NCBI RefSeq assembly: GCF_037392515.1 | Contig: NC_090281.1 | Coordinates: 51,562,753 to 51,626,752, forward strand | Direction: 5' to 3' | DNA from: Haliotis asinina | Lineage: Eukaryota; Mollusca; Gastropoda; Lepetellida; Haliotidae | DNA: 64,000 nucleotides | Shown here: one piece after another, positions 554 through 61,553 of the stretch | Numbering within the stretch: the stretch's first letter is position 1 | How the letters are laid out: each line of letters opens with the position of its first letter | The notes under the pieces: generated by a model | Told to the model about the DNA's origin: nothing | The model's database searches: none | The model's input: the letters and a program-made list of their open reading frames with translations, nothing else | Translations under genes and position numbers: made by a program

Positions 554-3500
554 AAAGAGAGAGAGAGAGAGTTTCTTTGATTCTATATGCATCGCCATCT
601 TGTAAAATACGAGATGAGGTCCAGTTTAAAAGAGTCACATTGTGAATATTTCGGCGAAAGGTAATCAGGTGAAAAGGTGATTCGCTCCCAACTGGCACAA
701 TGACATGGGTTGTATCACTATATTTTCGATAAAACCGAGATTCAGTATGACCGTTTAAAGTGAGTTTCGAATATTGTTCTCTAGTTTGTTATTCATAGTT
801 TGGCCAGGTAACAGTTATGTAACGTGTGCTTCTACCAGTGGGACCATCCGGTGCACCAGTAGAAGCTGTAGACAGTAATAATTAACACGTCACAATTTAA
901 TTCTGGACTCACAATAGTCCAGAAACTCTCAGCACTGTGGCCACTCTCGCACAAGGGATTTCGCAAAATTAAACAGGCAGCTGTTATGTATGTGTGCTAA
1001 GGATGAAAAAATGAAAAAAATTTTTTTCGAAAACTCAAAATTTAAACTCGTTCGCCCATGGGCACGCCCATGGGCGAACAGTGGCCAATGGGTAGGCCCA
1101 TGGGCAGGCCCATGGGCGAAAGTGTTTCATTTCATCCAGAATGAATGTTTTGGAGGTTGTAAATGAATGAAAAAATGTTAATAAGTATCATGACACAAAT
1201 TTCAGCTTGTTGTGACTTGACTCTGCTAACTGACAGCGATTTTGAAAAATCTCGCCCATGGGTGAAAAACATATTGGCCCATGGACGAGAATAATTAATT
1301 TCATTGAAACTACATGTTGTTTTTTTTCCAGGCTGTGCAGTTTTTCAATAAATGAACGTGTATTTATTATTGTCTTGACACGAAATTAAGCTTATTTTGA
1401 CTTAATTCGGCTAATTAAGAGTGATTTTTCAAAAAGACTCGCCCATGGGCGAAAACCATTTGGCCCATGGGTGAGAATATTTACTTTTACTCAAAATACA
1501 CCTTTTCCCATGTTTTGGAGGTTGTGAATGGATGAAAGTATGTTCATAAGTATCATGTCACAAAATTCAACTCATTTTGAATTAATTCCGTTAATTTAGA
1601 GCTATTTAACAAAATCTCAGCCATGGGTGAAAAACATTTTGGCCCATGGGCGAGAATATTTCCTTTTACCCCAAACACATCTTTTCCAATATTTGGAGGA
1701 TGTAAATGAATAAAAGTACATTTATGAGTATCATGACAGAAATTTCAACTCACTTTGACTTAATTCCTCTAAATGAGAGCAATTTTGAAAACTCTCGCCC
1801 ATGGGAGAAAGACATTTTGGCCCATGGACGAGAATATTTGCCTTCACTCAAAATACATCTTTTCCTGTGGTTTGGAGGTGTAAATGAATGAGGATATATA
1901 TATGAGTATCATGGCACAAAATCCAACTCATTATGACTTAATTCTGCTTATTGAGACCGATTTTCAAAAACATCTCGCCCATGGGCGAAAAACATTGGGC
2001 CCATGAGCGAAAATCTTTCCTTTTCACTCCAAATACATCTTTCCTAATGTTTTGGAGGATGTAAATGTATGAAAGTGCCATTATGAGTATCATGACACAA
2101 AATTCAACTGATTTTGACTTAATTTTGCGAATTCAGGAAGATTTTTAAAAATATGCCAGAATAATCACTTTTACTCAAAATACATCTTTTCCCGTGTTTT
2201 GGATTTTGTAAATGAATGAGGATATATTTATATGTATCATGGCACAAAATCCAACTCATTTTGTCTTAATTCTGCTAATTTGTAACAAGTACAAGAATCT
2301 GGACTTCCACTTAAATTTTCATAGCTTTTTTTATTGTCTTGGAGGGTGTAAATATATGAATGAAAGTGTGTTTATAAGTATCACGACAAAAAAAAAATGA
2401 AATCATTCCGGTCTTAATTCGACTAATCTCTCTCGTGGACGAAAATATATTCGTTTGCTCGTTTTCTTTATTTTGCAAACATATGGTTTAAAAATAGATG
2501 AAATTCTAATGACAATTCAGTTTAATTTCGTGAGTTTAGTTTTATGTTGCACTCAGTAATATCCCAGCAATATGGCGGCAGTTTGTAGATAATCGAGTTT
2601 GGATCAGACAATCCAGTGATCAACAGCATGAGCATCGACCTGCACAATTGGGAACTGATGACATGTGTCAACCAAGTCAGCGAGCCTGACCACCCGATCC
2701 CGTTAGTCACCTCTTACGACAAGCATAGTCGCCTTTTATGGCAAGCATGGGTTGGTGAGGCCCTCTTCTACTCCAAATCTTCACGGGTCCCGAACACAGA
2801 GCTTTACTTCCAGCAACATATACAATACACTTAGAATACTAAGCCTTGAGATTCTTTTGAATTTAGGTATTCTATAAATATACCAAAATTCAACCTATAT
2901 CTATGAAGTTGAAGTTATTTGTGAAAGCCCTAATCAAGAGTGACCAAACTCCAGTGACTATGCTGGGACACAATAATAAATGGTGCTGTGAGATCTTTAA
3001 CCTGTATTGAAACATGTCTTGCCAATTCCGCTGACATTCACCAAATGTACCTACCTAGTAGTTTTAAGTGTACCTACCCAGTTTAGCATGTTTCGTTTTA
3101 ATAGTGTGGTCTCCATTTTTAGTAATTCCCGTTTGCCCGTGCCGGTTTTTCCTCGTCCGAGATTTTATGGGGTATTCTCCTATTTGTCAGACCAGAAATT
3201 ATCTACAACAGGGGTAGGTCACTCGCTTGTTTCCTTTACCATTTGTACTAATTAGTATGCGCCTCCTCATGCTCCAATGCACACAGTGACCTGATTCGTC
3301 TCCATCGCAACTTAGGCTGCGTTTAACAGTACTTCAGCCAGTTTATTGTATCAGTCGAAATCTTACAATGAATGAATGAATGAATGAATAGCAAGAAGTA
3401 TATCTGAATGAATGAAAGAAATGATAAAAGAAAGAAGTGCATATGTGAATGAATGAGAAAGATATAATAAAAGAAAGAAGTACATATGTGAATGAATGAA

Positions 3501-6500
3501 AGAATAAATGATACATCACGGCCATCCCTTCCAAAACATGCTAAAGAACGCAAAACTATCGTTAGATCACATGTGTTAACATCAGCTTGTTATTGTCTCC
3601 CTGGTCAGGCGTAACAATTGTCAGACAGGTTAAAACAACAAACTATCTGGTTGACTGCACAGCTGCCTGTTGACGTAGTATACCCACAACACCTACTTTT
3701 CCTGCGTAACCTTCATCTACATCACCACCCTTAATATATTGAGCAGAGAGCAAGGAAGGCCCTACAGCTGTAACCACTGAACCGTGGCGTCTCTCTGCTC
3801 CCAAGTTCCCAAGTGGGGGTGTCCTTCTCTACCTCTTCCATTAATCTTAAAACATCTAACACGCTCAACGCATGCATCTTTTTATTAAAATGTGATGTTA
3901 TACATAATCATAAGAGTATTTTTATGTATTATTCAGTTGATAAATTATTATTCTATGATATATATATATATATGTATGACACGCTGGACAGGTCTAGGGC
4001 ATTTTGTGTTAATTTACCATTCCCATTTTCATAATGCTTAAAAAAGACACTCATTAATCTATCGCAGAGTTTTGTCATTCCTTCACTCCAACATGGTTGC
4101 TAAATCCCCTATGATCATAGTATATCGACTCTGCCATACCCAGTTCACCTAATCCTGAGAAATCAACCAGTCATGACATACCCACATCGCCTAATTAATT
4201 TTCCGTACCTATCGAGTAAAAAATACATAAAATGGGAGGACGCCTTGTTAACTAATGGGAGTGAGCCTTGCAGGGAGTACCCTCACTCTCACAAACCCAC
4301 GTATTGAGGAGAAGCGGCCGTGTTTGTCGGGGATTTTTCTGGCTTTGCTAAATAAATCGTACATAAACATGTAAAATATTTTGCTTTGATTCTGTAACTA
4401 CCCACATTATGACATTGAGACCATTTTGATTTATCTAGTAAAATACGATTGAAGAGTTTTGAGTTTGAATCTTGCCACTTTAGCGCTCTATCTTTTTTTA
4501 ATGGGGCGTGCATACTAATATTTAGGTTGTTTTTAGTATTCCATCTATTTGTTTAAATTAACTGATTTACCTGTTTTTGCTTTGTTTGGGTTTTTTATTG
4601 CAAGTGGCCCAGCGAGTGAGTCTGCTTTGATACCTGTAAATTTATTCTGACGTTTGACGAGCGGGACGTAAACAAGAACATATATGGAGCCCCTGCATCA
4701 ATACGTATTAAAGTGTTTGAAACATTATGCTAGACCATTATTTGTACACAAGTGATGAAATGTACCTGAAAGATCAAGGTTCATAAGAACGTACAAGGCA
4801 CATTTCTCCTACCTCATTTAAGAATGTCCATTTCTGATTGGTTCACGTGGCCTTGCGAGGGAGAATAGATAATTTTTACCCCGCCACGTGGGAAAAGCCT
4901 GCATCCAGTCAGTGAACTGTAAAGCAGTGGTTCGAATCGACTATAGTTAGTACCATGTTAATATAATACATGAAGTCTTTGAATGTCATTTAGAAGTGAA
5001 AATACATAAGAATGAAGATTATTATGGATATCAACTTCTTTATGACAGAACACAACACCTGATGAAGGAGTAAGCATTAACTCCGAAACGTTGTGTTCTC
5101 TCATAAAGAAGTTGATATCCATAATAATCTTCATTCTTAAATATAATACATGGTTTCAGCTTGTTTTGATGCTCTTTTGACATAAAGTGATATTTAAACA
5201 TTCGTTATGGTAAATACGGTGTAGCAATGTGATGAAGAGTATGCGGGTTTCTTCATCCCATTTCATCCACCGATGAGAATGGTGGTATCCTCTTTTGGTT
5301 CACACCCGGATTGTCGATTGTTTTATCAAATACACAACAGGACTGTCGAAAAGCAGTGGAGTGTGACAGTGCTCAACACTGTTCTAATGACACCCGGAGC
5401 GTCGACTACCTTGGAGAACTTGTGCCCGAGAATGCCCGTGAATAGCAGAAGACTCGTCTCTACGCTAATTAACGAGCTAAAACACATACACACAGACTTC
5501 GGTGAAAGAATGAGCTGCGGAACCAATTCCTGAATGATAGTCGTCGCACGAACAGTAGTCGAGAAAGTTGGCGTCATCGTGAATCGAGGGTCTGTGAGCA
5601 ATGTAAACTGCATATTGTGAGACAGTGGCCACAATAAAGAATAAAGAAGAACTTGACAGAAGGCTTCAGCGTCTCAACGAGCAGCTCCAAAGACAAGAGA
5701 TTTCCGTAATGAGCTGTGCTCATCAGACTGTCTGCCTCGCTCATAGTGACCACATTACTGTACTTTATAACGTATTTGGTTTTCCTTCATGTCCGGAGCG
5801 TCGAACGCCATAGTGTTGACACCTGATTACCTCCTTACGTATTACCCGAGACCTCGAATTTACAAAAATTTCAATTCAATTTTAGACAGCCCAGGCAAGT
5901 CGTTTGTTTAAGGAGTAAGAGGATTAGGAGGCATGGTCGACTAGATTTCTTTATTTAACTAATCCCACACGGCCTTCACCAATAGAGGGAATGATTTCTG
6001 TTCAGTTATGACATTGCTGTTCTCCATATGTCTCTATTTTCTCCACACATCTCCATGTTGTATTTTTGTATGTTTTGTAACTCTGATAGGGACTGGTGAA
6101 CAAGCTTTACAGTACCTCACCCATACAGCATTTAAAACAAAATATAAATGAAGCATGTGTCGTCATCCATATGAACTATCATATAATAACATATGCATAC
6201 ATATCATTACATCAAATACATCTTTCATATAAGTAAACATGAAAAATAGAATTATGGTTTGTTGTGTCTGACTAGCTCTTTGTAGAAACACTGAACATTT
6301 GTGAGAAGGTTTTTGACAAGTTAATTAGTTTCCTGTTAAAAAATTAAAAAAATCAAGCTTTGTGTTTTATGATAAAATCGTGGACGGATCAACTATTTTC
6401 TGGTTTTCACAGTGAATAAGTTCTTTTCCGTTCACCGAAGTCATCATAGACCACAGTGAGAAAAGGTCGATCTTCAAGCAGTAAGGAAGACCATGATAGC

Positions 6501-9500
6501 GTATGGAGTACGTGTGTCTTGGTCATCTCCTCCGCTATCCCCTCCCCGAATCCACACCCCACCAGGGCGTGTAGGACTTGTCTCGGTGAATAAAAAGGGA
6601 CTCCTATAACCCCATATACCCCTAATCACAATGCTATAATTTGTCGTTTTTGTGTATCCGGTTTTGTGTATTCTGTAATATTGTATAGTACTGGTGAAGT
6701 GTTAATCAAAGCAATATTTTGCTTGCTAAACGAACCACATTTTTTGAGAATCAAAATATGTTTTAAGCACATTTCCAAAATTGAAATGCAGCATGCACAC
6801 AATAACTAAATTGGAAGGAATATCGTGCCGGACAAGGTTTTCCAGAGCACCTGCACATAAATGTCAATGTCTTTCAAAGACTAATATGTGCAGGTCTTGC
6901 AAAAGGACAAAGCAGGTATGCTTGACAAAGTTCTTGCAAAGGAGGTTTATACACAACACCAAAACCAACCGGTCAGTTCGACGCCTTATAGAACAATCAA
7001 TTCGAGATTTCCTTTGAATGTGAGATATTTGGCTGCGCGTCTTGCGCAATCAGTCTTTTTCATCCATATACACTCACGAACACCTGTTCATTTCAAAGCT
7101 GGTGTCTCCTAATGACCTAATGTGATCCATGGATGAATTTTGTAAATGACAAGTAAAATACACATGAAAGCGGCAGCTGTTATACTCCAATAAACAAGAC
7201 CAGCGGACGAGACATGACTTTTTCGGTGCAAATTGTCGTAGGCGCTTTTCGGAAATTACGTAAGTGAACGCGGACGAAACAGAAAGCGTCATCGTTCCGC
7301 TCAGTTTCCATTGTCTTTGCGAGTTATGCTGAGATACTCAACAAACTGAGATAAAAGTCAAAATGATGAAAAAGTGGAAATCAGTGTGTGGATTAGAACT
7401 TGAAAATCACTCATGAAGTCTCTGACAAAGTAATATCTGTTCAGGTCATGATCATTTGGAAAAAAATACGAAAGTTCTATGGATATACAACTTCTTATAA
7501 GGTAAGCAGCATTTCGGCGTAGCTGTTAAACTCGTTATCAAGAAAGGAATATCTTACAGGTAGTCCTGTAAGTTAAACCTTTGTTTTGGGTCGAGGTCAA
7601 AATCGTTTGGTGTAGTGACAACGGTGTTGATTTATGGGATTAGACACGGCTTTTCTATAAAAAAGTAAAATGTGTGTCCTCAGGAAACGAAATAAGACAC
7701 GTGTACCAGAATGTAAGTGAATCGATGTTAGCGAGTTCAATCAGTGACTTCAGTTAAAATGGGCTTTCAGTTCACTCCTTCCAGTAGTAATGAGTTATTT
7801 AGTTTCTTGGTAAAATTGCTTGCAAGGTGAATGTTGAAAATGACAGTTTTCAGGATCATTTTAACAACTTCAGTTATGGCAAATGCGCTGCTATGCTTCA
7901 CGTTTCGTCCTACTTATTTTACGGGAAGATACCTTTGTGTAAACAGCTATATGTTCATTCTGAGAACTGGTAAAAAGGGAGAATATATCTCGTGAAAATG
8001 AATTTTGAAAGACTGCAGATCAACTGTTCCAGTTGTCTCAACAACATAATTTCTAAAATACTTAGAGACAACAATCACGGAAGCCAAAGTAAATCTGTGT
8101 AGCAAAAATAGTGAAAATTTATTTAAAAAATAGAAAAGTAAACGCAAAGTCAATCTTGATTACATTACGTATTCCTCATAGCCCGATATAATGATTACAC
8201 ATTAATAGTATGGATACGTTAATGTATAGTTTAAACTAATCTCCTCAAGTAATCGGGACTGGATTGTCAAGCATAAACATACATATCAATGCCGCTCCAT
8301 ACCAATAATATAATTACATAACATACATGATAACAACACTTCATGTTCCGCTTGTCAAACGTCAGAATAAATTTACAGTTATCAAAGCAGACTAACAGGC
8401 CCACTAGCTGTAAAAAACAAAACAAAAACAAATAAATTAATAAATCCAAATGAATAGATGGAATACTAAAAACCACCAAAATATGCACGCCCCCTTTAAA
8501 TAGGTAGAGTGCAAAAGTGGCAAACCGGTAAAATATGCCAAGATTCAAACTCAAAACTATACAATCGTATTTTACTAGATAAATCAGAATGGTCTCAGTG
8601 TCATAATGTGGGTAGTTACAGAATCGAAGCAAAATATTGTACATATATGTATCATGAAATAATAATTTATCAACTGACTAACACATAAAAAATACTCTTA
8701 TGATATGTATAACATCACATTTGAGTAAAAAAATGCATGCGTTGAGCGTGTTAGATGTTTTAAAGATCAATGGAATAGGTAGAAAAGGACACCCCCACTT
8801 GGGAACTTGGGAGCAGAGAGACGCCACGGTTCATTGGTTACAGCTATAGGGCCTTCTGTGCTCTCTGCTCAATATATTAAGGGTGGTGATGTAGATGAAG
8901 GTTACGCAGGAAAAGTAGGTGTTGTGGGTATACTACGTCAACAGGTAGCTGTGCAGTCAACCAGATAGTTTGTTGTTTTAACCTGTCTGACAATTGTTAC
9001 GCCTGACCAGGGAGACAATAACAAGCTGATGTTAACACATGTGATCTAACGATAGTTTTGCGTTCTTTAGCATGTTTTGGAAGGGATGGCCGTGATGTAT
9101 CATTTATTCTTTCATTCATTCACATATGTACTTCTTTCTTTTATTATATCTTTCTCATTCATTCACATATACTTCTTGCTCTTCATTCATTCATTCATTC
9201 ATTCATTCATTGTAAGATTTCGACTGATACAGTAAACTGGCTGAAGTACTGTTAAACGCAGCCTAAGTTGCGATGGAGACGAATCAGGTCACTGTGTGCA
9301 TTGGAGCATGAGGAGGCGCATACTAATTAGTACAAATGGTAAAGAAAACAAGCGAGTGACCTACCAAGGTAGGTACACTTAAAACTACTAGGTAGATACA
9401 TTTGGCGAATGTCAGTGGAATTGACAAGACATATTTCAATACAGTTTAAAGATCTCACAACACCGTTTATTAATGTGTCCCAGCATAGTCACTGGAGTTT

Positions 9501-12038
9501 GGTCACTCTTGATTAGGGCTTTCACAAATAACTTCAGCTTCATAGATATAGGTTGAATTTTGGTATATTTATAGAATACCTAAATTCAAAAGAATCTCAA
9601 GGCTTAGTATTCTAAGTGTATTGTATATGTTGCTGGAAGTAAAGCTCTGTGTTCGGGACCCGTGAAGATCTGGAGTAGAAGAGGGCGTCAACAACCCATG
9701 CTTGCCATAAAAGGCGACTATGCCTGTCGTAAGAGGTGACTAACGGGATCGGGTGGTCAGGCTCGCTGACTTTTGCTGACACATGTCATCAGTTCCCAAT
9801 TGTGCAGGTAGATGCTCACACTGTTGATCACTGGATTGCCGCCGCCATATTGCTGGGATATTGCTGAGTGCGACATAAAACTAAACTCACGAAATTAAAC
9901 TGAATTTTCATTAGAATTTCATCTATTTTTAAACCATATGTTTGCAAAATAAAGAAAACGAGCAAACGAAAATATTTTCGTCCACGAGAGAGATTAGTCG
10001 AATTAAGACCGGAATGATTTCATTTTTTTTGTCGTGATACTTATAAACACACTTTCATTCATAAATTTACAACCCCCAAGACAATAAAAAAAAAACTATG
10101 AAAATTTAAGTGGAAATCCAGATCCTATACTTGTTACAAATTAGCAGAATTAAGTCAAAATGAGTTGAATTTTGTGCCATGATACTTACAAATATATCCT
10201 CATTCATTTACAAAATCCAAAACACGGGAAAAGATGTATTTTGAGTAAAAGTGATTATTCTGGCATATTTTAAAAAAATCTTCCTAAAGTCGCAAAATTA
10301 AGTCAAAATCAGTTGAATTTTGTGTCATGATACTCACAACGGCACTTTCATACATTTACATCCTCCAAAACATTAGGAAAGATGTATTTTGAGTGAAGGC
10401 AAATATTCTCGCCCATGGGCCAAAATGTCTTTCTCCCATGGGCGAGAGTTTTCAAAATTGCTCTCATTTAGAGGAATTAAGTCAAAGTGAGTTGAAATTT
10501 CTGTCATGATACTCATAAATGTACTTTTATTCATTTACATCCTCCAAATATTGGAAAAGATGTGTTTGGGGTAAAAGGAAATATTCTCGCCCATGGGCCA
10601 AAATGTTTTTCACCCATGGCTGAGATTTTGTTAAATAGCTCTAAATTAACGGAATTAATTCAAAATGAGTTGAATTTTGTGACATGATACTTATGAACAT
10701 ACTTTCATCCATTCACAACCTCCAAAACATGGGAAAAGGTGTATTTTGAGTAAAAGTAAATATTCTCACCCATGGGCCAAATGGTTTTCGCCCATGGGCG
10801 AGTCTTTTTGAAAAATCACTCTTAATTAGCCGAATTAAGTCAAAATAAGCTTAATCTCGTGTCAAGACAATAATAAATACACGTTCATTTATTGAAAAAC
10901 TGCACAGCCTGGAAAAAAAACATGTAGATTCAATGAAATTAATTATTCTCGTCCATGGGCCAATATGTTTTTCACCCATGGGCGAGATTTTTCAAAATCG
11001 CTGTCAGTTAGCAGAGTCAAGTCACAACAAGCTGAAATTTGTGTCATGATACTTATTAACATTTTTTCATTCATTTACAACCTCCAAAACATTCATTCTG
11101 GATGAAATGAAACACTTTCGCCCATGGGCCTGCCCATGGGCCTACCCATTGGCCACTGTTCGCCCATGGGCGTGCCCATGGGCGAGCGAGTTTAAATTTT
11201 GAGTTTTCGAAAAAAAAATTTTTCATTTTTTCATCCTTAGCACACATACATAACAGCTGCCTGTTTAATTTTGCGAAATCCCTTGTGAGAGAGTGGCCAC
11301 AGTGCTGAGAGTTTCTGGACTATTGTGAGTCCAGAATTAAATTGTGACGTGTTAATTGTATAATCAGTAGTAGAAGCTGTAGTAGGAGAGGTTGAGTGCA
11401 TACACGCTCGCACGCACATCGTTGTCGTAGCTGATATATACATAAAAATAAAAAAAATATGATTTTCCATGTTTTATTTTACCTCCAGGGGCAATATCGA
11501 ATACACCAAGCCATGTTTCGTCACCCGAAATTGCTGGTGCAAGCGCTGCTGGTGCAAACGCTGCTGGTGTTTCTCCTTCAGTCGTGGTTGCCACCAATGG
11601 GCACATCTACCGTGCTTCACCAGCCTTCGAAGTCCATGTCGACAAAACCCTTCTCGCTATCTCCTACGACCGCGTGTCCAACAGCTTGTATTCTGTTGAG
11701 GATGATGATGATAACTCCGTTACAATTGTCCGCAGAGATGTAGATGGTAGTTTCCAGGCAGTTGTAAGAACCTACACTGGTAAGTTATGAGTGTTAGCGC
11801 GGAGATGGGCGGGGACAGAGACATCAATGTGGCGTCTGTAACTTATAGATATGTGTGTTATCACTCAGGTGGGTGGGGAGAGAGACATCGGTGTAGCGTC
11901 TGTAACTAACAGATACGTGGGGGGGGGGGGGGGGGGGGGGGGGGAAGAGAGACATCAACGCAGCGTCTGTAACTAATAGATACGTGTGTCGGGGGACGAG
12001 AGAAACATCAATGTAGCGTCTGTAACCAATAGATACGT

Positions 12039-12069
<31 letters not shown>

Positions 12070-15000
12070 GGAGAGAGACATCAATGAGCCGTCTGTAACT
12101 AATAGATATGTGTGTTATCACTCAGGTGGGTGGAGAGAGAGGCATCAATGTAGTGTCTGTAGCTATAGATATGTGTGTTATCACTCAGGTGGGTGGAGAG
12201 AAAGGCATCAATGTAGTGTCTGTAACTAATAGATATGTGTGTTATCACTCAGGTGGGGGGAGAGAGAGGCATCAATGTAGTGTCTGTAGCTAATAGATAT
12301 GTGTGTTATCACTCGTTGGGAGGGGGAGAGAGACATCGAAGTATTGTCGGTACAGGTACGCATGTAGCTAATGCTTGCCCTTGACCCTGTGTGTTAAAGC
12401 TCAACACGCCCCAGCTGACCTGACGTTTGACAACAATGGCGTGATGTACGTGCTTCTCACCGATGAAATAACCACCTACTTCGAACAGATCGAAAATATC
12501 ACAACTTCTCCCGTCGTTACGAAAATGGGCCCTTCCCTCGGTCATGGCAGACGTCTGTCCGTTGATTCCGCCAATAGGTAATTAGGGAGTGCCCATCTTG
12601 GTGAATGTTGACCACTGGGTATTACGTGAGTGAGTGAGTGGGTGGGTGGATGGGTGAGTGAATGAGTGAAGGTTATACCAACTTTTGTTTTTGTACTGAG
12701 GTTAGTCAGATAAATTAAAATGGCGATAGCGGTTATATTACCTAGTTGGTGACTCCGGTTTAATGAGCTGTGGTATCCGGTGGTGTAAAGATATTAGGAG
12801 AGGAAAGATAACACAGTTTGGTGATTGTGTGAATGAAATGCTTGCTGTATTCCGTCTACGTCATGGAATGTCAGTGTAACATCTGAAGCAATGCATGTAT
12901 CAGGCGTATAGCATTTGGGCAAAACGCAGGTGTAAGTGTTTGCTAACAAACCTGGAACCATAATCGGGGTGAATAGGAACTCTCGAGTCACCGTTTTTCA
13001 CCGCGAATAGCGGCATCTTTTTAAGACAAAAGGGCAAGACAGCCATAATAAGACAAGAGGGAACACGAGACAACTAAACACACTACAATGAAGGTACAAA
13101 GCGTTTACTTTACTTGTAATCCATTGAAGGTTAATATACTACACCTCGTCTGCGGGCGTCAGCGTATATGACATCAGCGCTACCACACACACCGAGATCA
13201 GCGACGCCAATAATGCTTTCGGCATCGGATATGACGCCACGGGTAAGTTCCGATTGTTATTACTGGCTGGTAAATGTATGCTATTGCGTAACTCACGATA
13301 AAACACTTCGATTACAAATCCTGAACCGCAATACATACGACTTAGTACAATACAACTTGTACTGATGTAAAAGCATGCGAAATTAACAGAAACTGACCTT
13401 TAAGAACATTTAGACGTGGAAAGCATGAGAAGTCAGATTTATGAATGTCAACTTCTTTATCGTGTATTCCATCAAACCGGTTACCATGTAGTTTTAGTAC
13501 ATTACTGGCCTCATGTCTGTAATGTATTTTTTAGTCTCCAACGTTGTTAAACATGTTTTCTTTGTAGCGCCTCTGTATATACACCCCTCTTGGTACTCTC
13601 TACTGTTCACCTGATAAAGGAGTAAGCGTACGCTCCGAAACGTTGTGTTATCCACAATAGAGTTGGCATCTGTCTCTTCTTAACAGAAAATAATGATGTT
13701 CAAGAAGCAGTTTATGTAGACTGTCCACTATTTTCTCAGTAGCCACAGACCCGTGAAGGTCCCGGGGTAGAATAGGCCTTCAGCAACCCATGCTTGCCAT
13801 AAAAGGTGACTGTGCTTGTCGTAAGAGGCGACTAACGGGAACGGGTGGTCAGCCTCGCTGACTTGGTTGACATATGTCATCGGTTCCCAATTTCGCAGAT
13901 CGATGCTCATGTTGTTGATCACTGGATTGTATGGTCCAGACTCGATTATTTACAGACCGCCGCCATATAGCTGGAATATTGCTGAGAGCGGCGTAAAACT
14001 AAACTCACTCACTCACTCAGTAGCCATAACGTGCAAAATATGCACAGTGCCTCCAAACTAATATTGTTTCTTCCCTCCAGTATCTCTGTTTTGCAGTGTG
14101 AAATCATACTGTCAGTGATGTGTTTAATACCTATATCTCGGCTTTGTTTTGGACCTTATTCGTTTTGCAGACTTTCGGCGACTATTTTCAGCTCACTGAC
14201 ATTTTAATAACATCAGCATTATAATTTTGGCACTTGAAGTGATGCTAGTTTTTTAACCTTTAATACTTTGATGAATGGAGGAATATAGATTGCTATTCAG
14301 ACTAAAATCATTCATTGGTCCATATCCTTACTGTACTGACCCTTTGACCATGCAGTGAACCTTGCACTATTCTTCACGTGTTGCAGACAACAAAGCAGTG
14401 TACTGCTTCAGCAACAGTGATGAGCTCGCTGTCTACAACCCGGCAGATCAGACATCCAGTACGGCATCACATGGCGGATCCGGCTGTTCCGACCTCGCTT
14501 TAAGCTCTTCAGTCCCAGATGCCCAGATCGCTGGTGTAAGCAACGTCTTTGTCTACACCACCGCAAACGACGAAAAGTAAGTCAAATTTAAGTTCAAGCT
14601 GGTCATCAAGCGCTGCTTCACACCTAAAGGTAACTAAGACCACCATTTTAAACATCCGGGATGATACATATAGATCCTAACTGGTGGACACAATGGGGAA
14701 CTGGACATATGACTTTGCATAGGTCACACTAGTTAACACAGGGTATTCGGGCAGACACATAGTATTGTTATTGCTGAATATAGTCACAGTGTTTGTCATA
14801 CTTTAACTTCCCAGTTGGCCACCAGGGTCAGCCGTCGCATGCTGACTTTATCCTTTCTCCTTCATCACATCCATAAATCCTTACTCCTTCGTAACGTCAC
14901 ACCTGTGTATTCTTACTCCTTCATCGCGTCACTCCTGTATATCCTTACTCCTTCATCGCGTCACTCCTGTATATCCTTTCTCCATCACATCGTTCCCGCA

Positions 15001-21744: not shown

Positions 21745-52896
<31,152 letters not shown>

Positions 52897-58800: not shown

Positions 58801-61553
58801 ATATCATGACGAAACATTTTGCGTCTCATTCTGCTGAATGCCGAATGTTGTGTAAGGATAAGCGAAAGGAAAAGACCTTACTTAAGAATAACAGATTAAC
58901 ACGGTGTTTAGAAAGACCCTTGTAAAGTCCGTATTTCCAGAGGAGCAGCCGAAGGAAATACAGACTTTACAAGGGTCCTACAGTCCCATACATCCTTTCA
59001 AAACACTGTGTTACTAATAATGAACTTTCTTCTGTCTTTATTACAGGTGTAAATAGGTATTTCCAAATGATGTTCATCCACGATAAGCTGAACAATGCCA
59101 GCAGTCGGAAGATCTCCTCCAAGCACATATGGAAACACCTTACTGAGATGTATGATTTACAGGCATTGGTCAGTACTGCATTACTTACACTTTCAAGAAA
59201 AATAGTGCTTGATTCATGGAATGCTATTTAATCCTATTTCAGTAGTTTTGCTTGAATTGTAAGTTTCATATTTACATGTTCTTTAGAAATGTTTGGGTAA
59301 AATAATGATTTTACATAACCTCAAACTTTGACATGTGCTGACAGTGACTAACCTTTGAAACTTAATGACCCTAGCTGTTAAAACTAAACTAAAGTAAATT
59401 TTGCAATGTTTGACTGTTGGCTGATATTCTGTGGCAAGAATTCCCAGTGGCTATGGAAAGTCTCTTATTGTAAACCCAAGATGCATGGAATGTTAGTTAT
59501 GGGTGCCCACGTTGCCACAAACATCGTTAATGTATTTATGATACCACCTTTTCACTTTCCCTGATTTGTTTTTTTGCAGAATGAATCAGAGATCATTCCC
59601 TTCCCAAACAAGGAGGTAGAGTTCCTGCTACCTGAAGTCGACTACCATTCTCTGATGGATAAGCCCTACCCTAGGATTGAACAGGCATCCATCAATGCTG
59701 AGGGAGAAAAAACTGAAGGTACACTGCCATCTCATTTGTCTTTAGAATGTAGCAATTCAATGAGTAGTATACTGTGTGGCCTCTGGGAGTGTAGGGGTAG
59801 CCTAGTGGTTAAGGTGTTCACTCATCACACTGATGGCCTGGGATCTATTCCCCACATGGGTACAACCTTTGAAGCCCATTTCTGGTGTCCTCATTGTGAT
59901 TTTACTGGAATGTTATTAAAGGCGACATAAAACTCGACTCACTCACTTACTCACAGTGACCTCTCTAGATACAAGTATCACATTGTTGCATCCCCATTGT
60001 TGCCGACTTCATTAGTGTCTTTGATACAACTCATGCTAACATTGTGCAGTGACAGGGTAACTGTCTACAGAGTTATTTCCCCTTGTGATATGTAAACATT
60101 TTGAACATCTAACATATGATGGACAGACACAAGACTTACAACTGAGCAGCTAAATGCCCCAAACTATGACCACCATACAAACAGTCCCAATTGTTCATAA
60201 CAATCAAAAGTCACCAACTGTCATTCCACTTTATGCATGCACCAAGGTTTGAAATATCCTCCATAATCTCCAGGGTATAAATTCCCATAAATCTCCACAA
60301 CTACCCTGGATGCATCTGTGGCTCAATATTTTTATTACCTCCCTTCGATGGCTCTGCATTCTCACTGTAACCGAACAGCCAAGTCACTGTTACAACCAAG
60401 TTTGCCAGTTACCACAAAATGACAGATATGAAACTTTAAAAAATTCTACCTCTGCATCTATTATTTAATCGGTGAGATAATTTAACAAGTGAAAGTGAGT
60501 TGTGATTGGTACGCTCAACTTCCCAGGGCAGACACCTGATTGGATAAAATGCCAGCCAAGGGAGAGAATAAAATCATTGGGTCATAGATGCATCAAGGGT
60601 ATAGTGAACATTTCTATCGTCACATATGCTCTGAAAATTATTGAGGATGGATTTGAAATAGATAAGGCAGATTCAGTGGTCACAGTCAGTTCTTGTTTGC
60701 AGTAAGGAAGTGTCCACTTATCCAAAGTCTATTGTTTTAACTTAAACAAATATAGCAAAGATGCACTGTAGCAACTTCATTAGAACACTGTCTTTTTAAT
60801 ATAATTTACACGGTAGACTGAGTTGCTTTGTTGTAGAAACAAATTCTAAATACAAACAGCTGAAGTAAAATTAAGTTTAACTGTTCTGTTTATGGGTGTG
60901 CAAAAAATTTTACACAGGAGGGGATTATTCAGATTAGAAAGCTTTATTTCACAAAATTCAGCTGGGGTAATAGATAGGATTCTGACTTAAAGTCATTTGC
61001 TGAATACCATTTGAGTTATCTCCCTTTACCTTAGCATTAGCTTCATCTTTAATCCTGTTTTTGTGCATAAGCATGGAAAATGTAGCACAGTGTTGACATG
61101 TTTTGTTACATTCTAGGTAAAGGATCAAAGTCTGATGGGAAAGGAAGCAGCTCCTCGAATGATAAAAATAAATATGACAAATCCACAAACAGAGGTGAAA
61201 CAAAAGGCTCCTCAACCCCACATTCTAAAGAGAGTAAAAGTGATAGTAAAGGCACATCAACTCCTCATGGGAAAGATGGCAAAGGTGACAATAAATCAGG
61301 AAAAGATTCTAAAAGTGACTCTAAAGGTTCCTCAACACCTCATGGTAAAGAAGGCAAGGGGGAGGGAAAAGCCTCCTCCACCCCCCATAGTACAAAGGGA
61401 AGTAAGTCTGGGGTGTCTGGGTCAGGCGGCACATCTGCATCCAGCACTCCCGAATCGACACCCAAGAGGAAACGGACACGACAAGCTAATTCTACTAACG
61501 CAAGTCCAGCCACGCCATCAGATTCACAGCCCACCAAGAGAGGCAGAAGGTGA
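55896..61553 (+). CDS. MRGBP: MRG/MORF4L-binding protein (Eaf7 family)
   Basis: Nuclear subunit of the TIP60/NuA4 histone acetyltransferase complex that binds MRG15/MRGX. Four exons: 55896-55977, 59047-59168, 59580-59718 and 61117-61553, totalling 780 nt (259 aa plus TGA). Residues about 10-100 form the conserved Eaf7 domain: MEVNLFHAMRRHKPAGVNRY, MMFIHDKLNN, SRKISSKHIWKHLTEMYDLQ and ESEIIPFPN align with human MRGBP. The C-terminal ~145 residues are Lys/Ser/Gly-rich with repeated SSTPHxK units and end in TPKRKRTRQ and PTKRGRR, likely nuclear localisation signals. It is longer than human MRGBP (204 aa as I recall it) because of this tail. The 3' UTR contains a SINE. Confidence 0.92.
55978..58460. 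other. MRGBP intron 1, left part
   Basis: About 2.5 kb of AT-rich DNA without recognisable repeat, apart from short low-complexity runs. Open frames such as 56032-56373 lack conserved domains. Confidence 0.4.
58461..58704 (+). repeat. SINE family 1, near full length
   Basis: CATGAAGGCAGGGGGTAGAA head to AAAACTAAACTCACTCACTC tail. Lies in MRGBP intron 1 in the sense direction. Confidence 0.9.
58895..59015. repeat. Hairpin (foldback) element just upstream of MRGBP exon 2
   Basis: Inner arms ACCCTTGTAAAGTCCGTATT / AATACAGACTTTACAAGGGT and outer arms TTAACACGGTGTTTAGAAAG / CTTTCAAAACACTGTGTTAC pair around a small AGAGGAGCAGCCGAAG loop. It ends about 30 bp before the exon 2 acceptor AG at 59045-59046. 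Confidence 0.8.
59169..59579. other. MRGBP intron 2
   Basis: AT-rich with a GTCAGT donor and a TTTTTTTGCAG acceptor. Nothing else recognised. Confidence 0.5.
59788..59958 (+). repeat. SINE family 2 (tRNA-derived), full length
   Basis: GGGTAGCCTAGTGGTTAAGG (box A region), a decayed box B (GGGATCTATTCCCC), AAGCCCATTTCTGGTGTCC and the tail ACATAAAACTCGACTCACTC. It lies in MRGBP intron 3 in sense orientation, about 70 bp after exon 3. Confidence 0.9.
59959..61116. other. MRGBP intron 3, remainder
   Basis: AT-rich and featureless apart from short open frames. The acceptor before exon 4 is TTACATTCTAG. Confidence 0.4.

Follow-up and report, generated by a model that had tools for sequence, protein, structure and literature searches.

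The 10.5-kb foldback in the stretch of Haliotis asinina DNA analysed here (the window: 64,000 nucleotides, C2:51562753-51626752, from a set of 159 contigs and a genome of 1.143 Gb) belongs to a mobile family with several hundred copies. We hold with high confidence that it is a non-autonomous foldback DNA transposon lying in host DNA, mobilised by a transposase acting in trans at AT-rich 4-bp targets, with duplication of 4 bp. The true target-site duplication of the window copy is the 4-bp sequence AATT, with its left copy at 880..883 (+) and its right copy at 11354..11357 (+), and the empty site contains a single AATT.

Architecture and ends of the foldback

The complete element occupies 884..11353 (10470 bp, no strand assigned) and has the termini AACACGTCACAATTTAATTC and GAATTAAATTGTGACGTGTT, its bounds having been set by comparison with other copies. 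In a genome search with the outer 172 bp (best 40 scored places of 1118 candidates), similarity among the ends begins at AACACGTCAC while the DNA outside differs from locus to locus (30 loci), and the element is therefore placed at 884-11353. Self-comparison and a full arm alignment delimit a left arm at 884..4667 (+, 3784 bp), a right arm at 8345..11353 (-, 3009 bp), and a loop at 4668..8344 (3677 bp, no strand assigned) in which no coding capacity was recognised and which is conserved in the other copies compared. The multi-kilobase, oppositely oriented arms and the loop described in an earlier note on this DNA are thus borne out: the arms pair far above chance (BLAST E = 0 in the window self-comparison), and the full alignment of the window copy's arms gives 96.3% identity across 2985 aligned positions. 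By 300-column block, identity is 98.7-100% in the outer three blocks and 85-98% further in.

Each arm consists of a short outer domain followed by a tandem array with units of roughly 178 bp. The left-arm array lies at 1144..2152 (+; 5.6 copies by TRF) and carries CCCATGGG palindromes, and the right-arm array lies at 10296..11093 (-; 4.4 copies). All 20 of the CCCATGGG palindromes within the element fall at 1055-1978 or 10412-11175, which are outer parts of the arms. Within the loop, a stretch of about 167 bp (4973..5139, no strand assigned) that includes an inverted repeat (5007-5139) is missing from copies C5a, C1, C2a, and C5b. The element has the features of the foldback class, namely long, internally repetitive inverted arms around a middle domain. 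A scan of the window against Rfam returned 0 matches at the gathering threshold.

Copy number, amplification, and coding capacity

The earlier note had proposed a genome search for the termini beside other flanks, and such termini were found: the exact 24-bp terminus has 672 matches in the 1.14-Gb genome (343 forward and 329 reverse; control, 0), and the ends are shared at other loci. Among the first 100 of these 672 places, which were used for the analysis of end pairs, there are 33 convergent pairs less than 40 kb apart and 0 divergent pairs within 13 kb; 26 of the 33 listed pairs span 8.8-12.6 kb (median 10.4 kb), one spans 1.2 kb, and six span 18.9-32.8 kb. A 26-mer marker from the loop has 167 exact matches genome-wide and 272 at up to three mismatches (control, 0), and a 1251-bp loop query is 97-100% identical in the best 40 scored of 732 candidates. 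The exact marker is absent from 11 of the 26 listed elements of 8.8-12.6 kb, two of these were read as a sample, and their loops are diverged; in an older, diverged copy (L059) the loop is 88% identical over 3430 aligned bases. At roughly 270 loops of about 10 kb each, the family would cover roughly 0.25% of the genome.

A larger end-to-end interval as the autonomous version was considered and rejected. The 18.9-kb interval on C1, of which the middle 10 kb was read, is a family element with open frames inside that look like those of a non-LTR retrotransposon; it was the one read among the larger intervals, the others being 22.7, 26.2, 32.1, and two of 32.8 kb. In L056 (C1:16674000-16683999) the family copy is interrupted by open frames resembling non-LTR retrotransposon genes for endonuclease, reverse transcriptase, and RNase H. 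Two end-to-end intervals on C2 (C2:32331881-32364673 and C2:32461870-32494662) are both 32793 bp long and lie about 130 kb apart, and are probably a local duplication.

One segment of the inner arm was compared among 19 arms from 10 copies. All 18 of the 18 arms having a partner find their nearest relative in a different copy, in an arm 0-2.8% apart, whereas the partner arm in the same copy is 3.5-6.9% apart; the whole foldback has thus been copied as a unit. Since this arm divergence is shared, the arms diverged before amplification and the foldback was not formed anew at each site. In the outermost 260 bp (in the window copy, the left outer terminal domain at 884..1143, +), the arms of one copy differ by only 0-2.6% in the 10 copies having both, a pattern that looks like homogenisation of the outer ends or constraint on them.

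No gene for the element's own mobility had been visible to the earlier note, and the searches agree. The longest open frame across 11 copies is 166 aa, six open frames from the loop and arm of the window copy had no Pfam match, and the read-through frames of that copy (six across the loop, six across the left arm) gave no match above the curated cut-off. Four sub-threshold Pfam matches were retrieved from the read-through frames (E 0.027-0.34). We considered whether a transposase gene, decayed or split by introns, lies concealed in the loop, which would make some copies autonomous. Retention of the 3.7-kb loop in L059 speaks for such a gene, as does the best of the sub-threshold matches, to HARE-HTH (E 0.027). 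Nevertheless, the absence of any Pfam family at the curated cut-off (which leaves room for transposases outside Pfam) and the short open frames speak against it; 3-base periodicity is not clear across 8 loop sequences (lowest p 0.018 among 35 overlapping windows, uncorrected), and short indels between the loop and L059 are multiples of three in only 11 of 42 cases. We consider a concealed gene unlikely. Genome pattern searches for relatives gave 4 hits with the first 15 terminal bp (control, 4) and 113 with the first 12 (control, 255); these searches address relatives sharing just those 15 or 12 bp, and a partner sharing more could escape them.

On this sequence evidence the element is taken as non-autonomous, and without a recognised transposase it must be moved by one encoded elsewhere. 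Such a transposase would recognise the ends AACACGTCAC and possibly also the arm repeats, as putative binding sites by analogy with Galileo, and the whole 10.5-kb unit would insert at an AT-rich 4-bp target whose 4 bp are duplicated. Both the trans-acting enzyme and a cut-and-paste mode are presumed in this scheme. The features expected of a mobile foldback are present, namely many loci, defined ends, a target duplication, and an empty site. Three points count against the reading as a mobile foldback: no source of transposase was located, 34 of the 100 listed ends have no exact 24-mer partner under the pairing rule, and one copy (C11) carries no duplication.

The target site and its empty counterpart

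The joined flanks of the window copy with one AATT are identical at 200 of 200 bases to C7:50367599-50367798, and apart from C7 this query has just two matches, which are the window's own two flanks. The surrounding stretch of C7 aligns colinearly to window 18-20762, with long matching pieces 97.9-98.9% identical, and the alignment breaks in a minisatellite at about 11.9-12.2 kb. That minisatellite (~64-bp units, 8.3 copies, window 11806-12337) lies just downstream of the insertion. Overall, window 18-20762 and 59400-60400 are matched by a colinear, inverted counterpart at C7:50319034-50368650 (97.9-100% identical). The probes fall on C7 in inverted order, the one from window 59400-60400 at a rounded 100%, and a probe taken some 100 kb before the window begins matches over 1201 bases, again at a rounded 100%. 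The correspondence thus extends upstream of the window for no less than 100 kb, and reflects either a recent segmental duplication or an uncollapsed haplotype. If it is a second haplotype, it has been placed on a separate contig; on either reading the insertion on C2 is young, its age being of the order of 1-2% divergence.

Conceivably, the element is older than the split between C2 and C7 and was lost from C7 by precise excision. DNA transposons are able to excise, but C7 has precisely one AATT with no footprint in 200 bp, and a fresh insertion on C2 requires a single step. We regard loss from C7 as very unlikely and favour insertion on C2.

The earlier note had taken a 13-bp flanking repeat for the footprint of the insertion. 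Within the window the 13-mer AGTAGAAGCTGTA is found only at 858 and 11369, both strands considered; genome-wide it has 60 occurrences against 68 for the reversed control, and the word itself is therefore unremarkable. The repeat extends to a 14-mer, AGTAGAAGCTGTAG, at 858..871 (+) and 11369..11382 (+), both copies being host sequence outside the element and shared with the empty site. A foldback insertion with a 13- or 14-bp target-site duplication draws support from these identical words near the two ends, since 3000 random draws of two 60-bp pieces from the window yielded a shared 14-letter word once, which makes pure chance unlikely. However, the 14-mers do not abut the element, as the 13-mers had been said to do, but are separated from it by 12 bp on the left and 15 bp on the right, and no similar repeat lies within 60 bp of the ends in any of the 11 other copies (0 of 11; longest, 8 bp). 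Both 14-mers are already in the C7 site, 37 bp apart from start to start, where the element is absent; the pair thus predates the insertion and is not the element's footprint. Two 13-mers without the insert were the outcome that the earlier note had itself set as refuting its claim, and the longer duplication retains next to no probability, unless C7 arose by an excision that kept both words. A persuasive flanking repeat can mislead, and it is the empty site that decides.

A locally formed inverted duplication or an assembly artefact in place of a transposon is scarcely credible, general caution and the near-identical C7 stretch (the assembly may hold two haplotypes) being outweighed by hundreds of exact termini, copies at different loci that share their ends and are of comparable size, diverged arm pairs common to the copies compared, and a clean empty site; the earlier proposal of one large inserted foldback unit is upheld on this point.

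A copy on C4 gives a second empty site: its flanks with one AATT form a gapless 94-bp match to a tandem unit of the window (84 identical), and with two AATT a 4-base gap opens in the same alignment. This copy (C4:51454563-51467065; L049 and L050) sits inside sequence resembling the family's own tandem unit.

Duplications were read at both ends of 12 copies, namely 9 convergent pairs, the window copy, and the short copy C15 from the 40 scored places, together with L057; C15 was taken because both ends lie in its locus, L057 came from the list of 24-mer matches, and ends without a partner in the listed places are excluded from the count. The direct repeats are exactly 4 bp in 10 of the 12. Five fit AWWT (AATT three times, AAAT, and ATTT) and five do not (ATAA, ATAC, ATTC, TATT, and ACAG); of the remaining two copies, C15 has a longer, ambiguous duplication of 7 bp inside a TATT run, and C11 lacks a duplication. 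Reading the flanks toward the element, the adjoining base is mostly T (22 of 31 ends) and the fourth base mostly A (18 of 31), a tally that counts both ends of some copies.

Relation to known transposons and genomic surroundings

PMC4079207 describes Tetris of Drosophila virilis as a non-autonomous foldback with 8-10-bp duplications and 3 structurally complete copies, and states that most foldbacks seem to be members of Mutator, with exceptions. Our element resembles Tetris, as portrayed there, in being a non-autonomous foldback with tandem-repeat arms (~220-bp repeats in Tetris) and an inner domain, the middle having no apparent coding; it differs in its 4-bp duplication, its hundreds of termini, and its conserved loop, the middle domain of Tetris being variable in composition (PMC4079207). 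The 8-10-bp duplication of the Mutator type was not found here, where the length is 4 bp in all but the ambiguous copy and the copy with none.

Target duplications of the P superfamily are 7-8 bp long. Galileo, a foldback-like member of that superfamily, is described in PMC3688188 as having additional transposase binding sites in its TIR repeats; very long TIRs with tandem repeats are common to Galileo and our element, whereas here no transposase was recognised and the duplication is 4 bp. Pfam searches of the loop and left arm of the window copy gave no THAP-type match above the cut-off, although for a non-autonomous copy it is the partner that decides membership of the P superfamily.

According to PMC3627910, members of Sola2 have AT-rich 4-bp duplications of the form AWWT (ATAT, AAAT, ATTT) and TIRs of 12-21 bp. 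The AT-rich 4-bp duplication of our element resembles this, with AWWT in 5 of our 12 copies; the short TIRs of Sola2 are unlike the arms described here. By duplication type, Sola2 is the leading candidate, which is suggestive only, and our literature search found no paper combining foldbacks and Sola2. Chapaev (CMC) likewise has 3-4-bp duplications, but its ends are given as invariably CAC...GTG in PMC4079192, whereas our element ends in AAC...GTT, with CAC starting two bases in. Chapaev-type termini were rejected, AAC being found at both ends of 11 copies and at 31 ends of 30 loci.

Tentatively, and with somewhat less than even confidence, we propose a foldback lineage outside Mutator and P, served by a Sola2-type or undescribed transposase with 4-bp AWWT-like targets, in which a non-coding 10-kb unit reached hundreds of copies and the 3.7-kb loop was kept over successive waves of spread. 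Were the loop so kept, it would be a functional non-coding part and not a passenger. That so large and recently active a family makes 4-bp duplications suggests a further origin of the foldback form, with another transposase. Its inverted arms of 3 kb, present in the hundreds, may also be sources of dsRNA and sites of ectopic recombination.

Beside the element, the flanking open frames at 175-480 and 11452-11787 had no Pfam match, and the earlier note's placement of the foldback in an intron was not confirmed. One flanking open frame, searched against the PDB, gave a best E of 0.68. Further downstream, a reverse transcriptase domain (RVT_1, E 3.2e-16) lies at window 42369-43070 (-), with more open frames at 41.1-44.5 kb; the RVT_1 locus is presumably a fragment of a DIRS-type retroelement.
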